This document shows, one piece after another, positions 29,159 to 30,400 of a stretch of 64,000 nt of DNA (position 1 is its first letter; each line of letters begins with the position of its first letter). The translations under genes were made by a program, and so were the position numbers. Source of the stretch: Candidatus Raymondbacteria bacterium RIFOXYA2_FULL_49_16 (GTDB lineage Bacteria > Fibrobacterota > OXYB2-FULL-49-7 > XYB2-FULL-49-35); the NCBI GenBank assembly GCA_001789205.1, contig MFYT01000023.1, forward strand, positions 111,911 to 175,910, in the 5' to 3' direction. The notes under the pieces are model-generated. The model made no database searches, was not told where the DNA came from, and saw nothing but the letters and a program-made list of their open reading frames with translations.

Positions 29159-29416
29159 ATGGATACGCGAGAAATACGATGTCCCTGCTGCAACGCGACG
29201 CTGATCGTCAAAGCGGGAACATCCGAAATACTCCAGGCCACACCATTCAAGAAGGGACCGGCTGAGTTCAACGATTTTCTCCAGAAGCAGAAAGGACGGA
29301 CCGAGGAGCTGGCGCGGAAATTCGAGGCGGTCAAGGAAAAGAGCAAGACGCGGCTTCAATCTATTGAGGACAAAATCCGCTACGCGAAAGAGCGGCACGA
29401 CAGTCAGGACGAATGA
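29159..29416 (+). CDS. Small zinc-ribbon-like hypothetical protein
   Basis: 85 residues with the start set by AAGGAGGACC before ATG. One CxxC (EIRCPCCNATLIVKAGTSEI) suggests half of a zinc ribbon, perhaps completed by dimerisation. The remainder is a long charged helix (TEELARKFEAVKEKSKTRLQ). The family is unknown. It is the last gene before a strong terminator and so closes the flagellar operon. Confidence 0.7.
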   Translation: MDTREIRCPCCNATLIVKAGTSEILQATPFKKGPAEFNDFLQKQKGRTEELARKFEAVKEKSKTRLQSIEDKIRYAKERHDSQDE

Positions 29417-29435: not shown

Positions 29436-29471
29436 AAAAGCCCCCGCAGGCGCTGCCTGCGGGGGCTTTTT
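29436..29471. terminator. Strong bidirectional rho-independent terminator
   Basis: A 16-base perfect inverted repeat with a 4-base loop. The core CCCCCGCAGG pairs with CCTGCGGGGG, flanked by AAAAG and CTTTTT. T runs on both strands let it end the flagellar operon on the plus strand and the lysine-rich peptide gene on the minus strand. Confidence 0.93.
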
Positions 29472-29488: not shown

Positions 29489-29548
29489 TTATTTTTTCTT
29501 CGAGCTCTTCTTCGCTTTTTTCTTAGCAGCTTTTTTCTTAGCGGCCAT
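29489..29548 (-). CDS. 19-residue lysine-rich (histone H1-tail-like) peptide
   Basis: A tiny gene with product MAAKKKAAKKKAKKSSKKK, 12 Lys of 19 residues and no acidic residue. An excellent ribosome site (AAGGAGG) lies 6 bases before ATG. A stop and then a strong terminator follow within 55 bases, and a plausible promoter lies upstream (TTGATT, 17 bases, TTATTT). The Ala/Lys repeat resembles bacterial histone H1-like tails, so nucleic acid binding is a fair guess. No family of this length is known to me. The combination of signals makes a real gene more likely than chance. Confidence 0.72.
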   Translation of the reverse strand: MAAKKKAAKKKAKKSSKKK

Positions 29549-29577
29549 TAAAGCCTCCTTGAAAGTTAAGGTTGAGG

Positions 29578-29595
29578 GAGCAGTAAAAACTGCTC
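29578..29595. promoter_or_regulatory. Hairpin in the 5' leader of the lysine-rich peptide gene
   Basis: GAGCAGT, a 4-base AAAA loop, then ACTGCTC: a perfect 7-base inverted repeat 30 bases upstream of the peptide start. It could be an operator or a leader hairpin. Nothing shows which. Confidence 0.4.
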
Positions 29596-29709
29596 TTAAC
29601 TGATAAATAAAATATTTCACGGTAAAAAATCAAAGAAAATATTGAAAAAATGGATTTTATTTCAAGACATCGGTCAATGCTGGCGCGGCCCTGCAACGGG
29701 TGTTATGTA

Positions 29710-29785: not shown

Positions 29786-30400
29786 ATGGAAACCAAAATA
29801 GCCGAATTAACCAGGGCCTTGTACCAGGAAGGCGTTGAAAAAGGAGAGAAAAAGGCTCTTGATATTACCGCGGAGGCGAAAATAGGCGCCGCGCGTATTG
29901 TCGCTGATGCGGAGCAGGAGGCCGCACATCTCAAGGCCAAGGCGGAAAAGGAATGCGCTGAACTCAGACGCACTGTCGACGCTGAGATTAAACTGTCAGC
30001 CTCCCAGGCGTTCAATAGTTTCAAACAGCAGGTCCTCGACAGTCTTGTTGCCAAGGCTGTGGACGGCTCTATTGCGAAAAGCATGGCCGACCCCGGCACG
30101 GTCGCTGATTTCATCAAGACCGCGCTCCAGAATTGGAAGGTTGCCGCAAGCGAGGCGCCCGATTTTGCGGTCATGCTCCCCGAGGCAAAGAAAGCCGAAC
30201 TCGATACAGCGGTGCGCACGGCCCTGTCCCAGACGCTTTCCAAGGGTGTTGAGATGCGGTTTTCCAAAACCATAAAGGCGGGTTTCCGCATTGGGCCAAA
30301 GGACGGTTCGTTCGCGGTCAGCTTCACGGAAGATGATTTTAAGGAATTTTTCAATCAATATGTCAGACCAAAGGCACGGAACTATCTTTTTGGGGAATAA
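29786..30400 (+). CDS. atpE (V-type): V-type ATPase subunit E
   Basis: 204 residues. A long charged N-terminal helix (TRALYQEGVEKGEKKALDI ... AEQEAAHLKAKAEKE) forms the peripheral stalk. The globular C-terminal part ends in DDFKEFFNQYVRPKARNYLF. It links the catalytic head to the membrane sector. First gene of the operon. Subunit E sequences vary, and the call is supported by shape and by position before DUF2764 and subunit A. Confidence 0.88.
   Translation: METKIAELTRALYQEGVEKGEKKALDITAEAKIGAARIVADAEQEAAHLKAKAEKECAELRRTVDAEIKLSASQAFNSFKQQVLDSLVAKAVDGSIAKSMADPGTVADFIKTALQNWKVAASEAPDFAVMLPEAKKAELDTAVRTALSQTLSKGVEMRFSKTIKAGFRIGPKDGSFAVSFTEDDFKEFFNQYVRPKARNYLFGE

Follow-up and report, generated by a model that had tools for sequence, protein, structure and literature searches.

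The window, by which we mean the whole 64,000-nucleotide stretch of Fibrobacterota DNA considered here, carries on its minus strand a 19-residue open reading frame (29548 to 29489) which starts with ATG, ends with TAA, and has counterparts of the same type in relatives. Its product, MAAKKKAAKKKAKKSSKKK, is composed of 11 lysine, 5 alanine, and 2 serine residues plus one methionine, bears a charge of about +11 across its 19 residues, and possesses neither a hydrophobic core nor a signal sequence. The frame, including its 5 alanine and 2 serine residues, had been proposed in the original prediction and was borne out on translation, except that 11 lysine residues were counted and not 12.

Expression signals and genomic setting

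The frame is preceded by a Shine-Dalgarno (SD) sequence, AAGGAGG (29560..29554, minus strand), which is located 5 nt ahead of the ATG and forms a duplex of -11.2 kcal/mol with the canonical 16S 3' end. Next to it lies the leader stretch CTCAACCTTAACTTTC (29561..29576, minus strand), parts of which (CAACCTTAAC ... CAAGGAGGCT) recur in the leader of a gene for a 23-residue lysine-rich peptide in genome G041, and a hairpin of 7 pairs with a loop of 4 (29595..29578, minus strand). On the 3' side, a bidirectional intrinsic terminator (29436-29470) is composed of 16 GC-rich pairs with a U tract on each side (dG about -33 kcal/mol); it starts 18 nt past the micropeptide stop codon and also serves the plus-strand gene ending at 29416. 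Ribosome site, leader hairpin, and strong shared terminator had all been named in the original prediction and are present. The promoter-like pair named there, TTGAAA - 16/18 - AATATT/TATTTT (29665..29636, minus strand), was found as well, but with 9 of 12 matches it is weak evidence; these are the only sigma-70-like pairs on the minus strand in the surrounding 1.2 kb. Taken as predicted, the locus would be a single-gene transcription unit with its own promoter, leader hairpin, strong SD, 19-codon reading frame, and shared terminator.

The convergent neighbour (29159..29416, plus strand) encodes a protein of 85 aa that has a CPCC motif, belongs to no Pfam family, and is basic in its second half; it sits between a gene for an HDOD protein and the shared terminator, and a sigma-70-type factor and a ParA/MinD-type ATPase are encoded on the same side. 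The divergent neighbour (29786..30400, plus strand) opens a V-type ATPase operon; its position suggests a subunit E-like product, and DUF2764 and subunit A come next. The nearest named relatives of the subunit E-like product are found in Chitinivibrionales and other Fibrobacterota. Synteny of the micropeptide gene with this operon was considered and rejected, as a peptide gene adjoins none of the loci that encode relatives of this protein.

Related peptides in the Fibrobacterota

When 167 Fibrobacterota genomes were searched with a strict pattern (an SD followed by MAxKKKAxKK), matches were obtained in 11 of them, compared with 0 for a reversed control pattern. Most matches stand alone as peptides of 19-28 aa, with an intrinsic terminator behind the gene; on translation, such peptides were found in the window genome, G021, G023, G027, G028, and G159-G163, and the matches in G006 and G028 include SWIB proteins with the same start. 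With an HMM built from the peptides, G158 (28 aa) and G164 (42 aa) were recovered as well. In family f7, the gene is present in 10 of 10 genomes (strict pattern, including G023, plus the HMM additions) and is located between a GlnD-like gene (HD and ACT domains) and a convergent argS gene, the contig of G160 ending before argS. An SD is present, and a terminator starts about 20-50 nt past the stop codon, in each of the ten f7 genes, in the G028 gene, and in the window gene. The f7 SDs are of the GGAGGTGAT type, and because their duplexes with the canonical 16S 3' end reach -23 to -26 kcal/mol, compared with -11 kcal/mol in the window, strong translation appears plausible, more so in f7 than for the window gene. 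Across the phylum, the peptides comprise 19-42 residues, mainly lysine and alanine (or threonine, valine, or serine), in a design like that of the window gene, and the repeat of the relatives is KK-x-A. The 23-residue peptide of G041, which belongs to another family, is MPVKAKKAVKKVAAKAKKVAKKK, and a terminator is present there too. In G027, a second stand-alone peptide, rich in lysine, alanine, and proline (L124:1511, 37 aa, MAKKKAAKKTAKKAAPVKAAPVKKAPAKKAAKKAAKK), was observed besides the copy between glnD and argS; no terminator was seen downstream of it.

The position of the gene differs by family: it lies at the V-ATPase operon in the window, between glnD and argS in f7, and elsewhere in G028 and G041. 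Common descent of all members is therefore not proven, and some members across the phylum may have arisen independently, as low-complexity sequences converge easily. The glnD-argS site of the window's own genome was also inspected and holds no peptide gene; argS is followed there by what reads as a PfkB-like kinase gene. A closer link is suggested for the window and G041, the leaders of which have CAACCTTAAC and CAAGGAGGCT in common directly ahead of the start codon, and which both show TAATCG at the stop. A pattern made from the leader words had three matches in the 167 genomes, namely the window gene, the G041 gene, and an unrelated gene whose product of about 245 aa has a signal-like N-terminus. 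This similarity, noticed after the fact, suggests but does not prove common descent of the window and G041 genes.

Most genomes of the phylum are without a detectable member in strict-pattern, relaxed-pattern, and HMM searches, and the peptide is therefore not universally needed. The strict pattern gave 0 matches in 395 Bacteroidota genomes, and the search of the six genomes behind the named loci yielded no peptide match. Relaxed lysine patterns mainly retrieved tails of larger proteins, and a scan for KKK followed by a stop codon gave a number of matches like that of the control, except for the known lysine-rich peptides and that of G041. Solved structures and plasmids gave no match in searches that are both limited by low-complexity filters, and no description of such stand-alone peptides was found in the literature for Fibrobacterota.

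The arrangement of a lysine-rich frame ahead of a terminator invites comparison with the leaders of amino-acid operons, which it resembles in composition and in terminator position; the locus could accordingly be a transcription attenuator whose leader peptide senses lysine through its 11 lysine codons. At the micropeptide locus no Rfam family scored near its gathering threshold; a sub-threshold His_leader match (29 bits, cut-off 49) would suit an attenuator. The same match occurs on the opposite strand of the terminator, however, and therefore reflects the hairpin. Attenuation is disfavoured because no same-strand gene follows the terminator, the next genes being convergent both in the window and in f7 (argS); moreover, lysine occurs in all repeats and the number of repeats is variable. 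We regard an attenuator as exceedingly improbable.

Coding status and selection on the peptide

The share of lysine in the micropeptide is 58 %, compared with a maximum of 33 % among SD-led frames of 12-60 aa in 60 simulated sequences of 64 kb each (order-2 Markov model, in which local A-rich stretches are outside the model). This margin is wide. At the mean composition of the window, 11 or more lysine residues in 18 codons have a binomial probability of 6e-13, again under a null that leaves local A-rich stretches aside.

The pattern of substitutions in relatives bears on the same question. In six of the f7 genomes, those of genus g39, identity over the first 26 codons is 90 %, whereas it is 56 % over the 120 nt ahead of the SD and 50 % over the 120 nt on the downstream side. 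The variable sites are distributed over codon positions 1, 2, and 3 as 0, 5, and 10. All 13 lysine residues in codons 1-26 are invariant, and the only replacements are between alanine and valine. The g11 peptides vary in length from 19 to 42 aa. Judged from these comparisons, the tail-only copies of f7 are under purifying selection that acts on the protein rather than on the RNA, because the remaining transcript diverges apart from SD and terminator. Lysine codon usage also differs between members, AAA with many AAA-AAA pairs prevailing in the window and mostly AAG being used in f7, and it is therefore the peptide that is conserved and not a poly(A) tract.

It might still be considered that the frame in the window is lysine-rich by chance and overlies an sRNA or a terminator region, since its genome (G000) is the only member of its family among the genomes compared. 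Against this stand the distance from the Markov maximum, the conservation of genes of the same design, and the leader words in common with G041, so that chance appears very improbable. The original prediction had held that a lack of conservation in relatives would indicate such a frame; conservation was found, judged on more distant Fibrobacterota. Its claim of a real gene gains from the relatives of the same design, from conservation at the peptide level, and from the retention of SD and terminator, all of this seen in the more distant relatives across the phylum. With the conservation evidence coming from relatives of the same design, the coding status of the frame is well supported, and the 19-residue reading frame is very probably a real, unannotated gene.

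Tails of larger proteins and the possible role of the micropeptide

Lysine-rich repeats with small residues are known from bacterial histone H1-like proteins. Hc1 and Hc2 of Chlamydia and BpH1 of Bordetella contain lysine repeats with alanine, valine, and threonine, show an even distribution of positive charge, and change in length by repeat units; Hc2 comprises 165-237 aa and BpH1 182-206 aa, with pentamer repeats and non-repeat parts, and tails of such composition bind nucleic acids (PMC2848022). The Fibrobacterota peptides share with them the repeats of lysine and small residues, the charge, and the length change by repeat units, but are 19-42 aa long and consist for the most part of KK with two small residues, and of nothing more. 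An open reading frame of 19 aa between SD and terminator falls short of the Hc1/Hc2 type, for which more than 100 aa and either an N-terminal domain or a long pentamer array would be expected, and the hmmscan of four relatives described below likewise gave no match to a profile of this family. The likeness to H1-like tails at a far smaller size, pointed out in the original prediction, thus holds for a 19-residue peptide of lysine/alanine composition. Mycobacterial HupB has a tail of the PAKK/KAAK type which binds nucleic acids (PMC5676037), and an identical MAAKKKA start is found in SWIB proteins of Fibrobacterota; in contrast to both, the tail makes up the entire protein in the micropeptide and has a gene and a terminator to itself.

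Lysine/alanine tails are attached to several larger proteins in the phylum. In SWIB proteins (L113:1321, L117:1336, L032:1513) they are N-terminal and about 15 to 50 residues long; the SWIB gene L112 of the window's own genome has hardly any tail. A pyruvate phosphate dikinase (PPDK)-like protein of the same genome (L125:1513, G000:C8:33250) starts with the tail MATKKAAKKKVKKPAKAKSAK, and a Fibrobacter DksA/TraR-like zinc-finger protein (L122:1511) with a long tail rich in lysine, glutamate, and alanine.

An origin of the micropeptide gene from a SWIB-type tail is possible. The gene might be a relic left by chance, once the N-terminal tail of a larger protein (SWIB or PPDK, for example) and now orphaned; this would agree with the occurrence of MAAKKKA, or a start close to it, in SWIB proteins of G006, G028, and G032 and with the tails that begin the PPDK-like and DksA-like proteins. 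Yet there is no remnant of a body, the terminator following so closely on the stop codon, and the tail-only copies of f7 are under purifying selection; a mere relic is accordingly improbable. No SWIB domain follows the tail in the window, where the frame ends, and the three SWIB genes of the genome are located elsewhere (L112, L118, L119).

The ribosomal proteins bTHX and bS22 are tiny and basic, are encoded by short, easily missed genes, and have defined sequences. The micropeptide is likewise tiny and basic; the defined sequence is theirs, while four relatives of the micropeptide (23-28 aa) matched no Pfam or NCBIfam family at E<=1 in hmmscan, a search of low power at such length. A comparable accessory peptide associated with the ribosome or rRNA, and not with DNA, would be in line with the family-wide presence of the gene in f7, and the very strong f7 SDs, the terminator, the fixed lysine residues, and the small size would suit a stoichiometric role. 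Nearly no side chains are fixed beyond lysine and small residues, however, and the length varies from 19 to 42 aa, both of which would be unusual for a defined rRNA pocket, and most genomes of the phylum have no detected member. We consider this role rather unlikely.

Phages encode small basic packaging proteins. One and the same 19-aa peptide, MATKKKATKKAKKKKLMQP, is encoded in four viral contigs (L137:3288, L141, L143, L149), where its SD-led frame lies between portal-like and protease/head-type genes. Like the micropeptide it is a tiny, lysine-rich, stand-alone reading frame with an SD, but it lies in a phage head module and ends with KLMQP.

On balance, and with confidence well short of certainty, we favour a single-gene unit encoding a tail-only, histone-H1-like peptide that binds nucleic acid by charge. 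The gene would yield a polycation built from KK and small residues, with no folded body and most likely made in quantity, which would bind nucleoid DNA or ribosomal RNA non-specifically, in the manner of the lysine/alanine tails of Hc1/Hc2/BpH1 and HupB. Binding to nucleic acids or ribosomes is suggested here by composition; we infer it, as we do expression, abundance, and cellular role. More tentatively still, some Fibrobacterota lineages may possess an undescribed class of stand-alone, strongly translated lysine/alanine micropeptides of 19-42 aa that act as free, body-less histone H1 tails and would rank among the shortest dedicated architectural polycations in bacteria. Since gene finders and low-complexity filters discard such genes, the class is probably undercounted. 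The bacterial H1-like proteins known so far are tails on a body or long repeat proteins. A tail-only gene with lysine residues under purifying selection would mean that a polycationic segment is by itself a selected gene product, and it would offer a minimal system for asking which of DNA, RNA, and ribosomes H1-like tails act upon.
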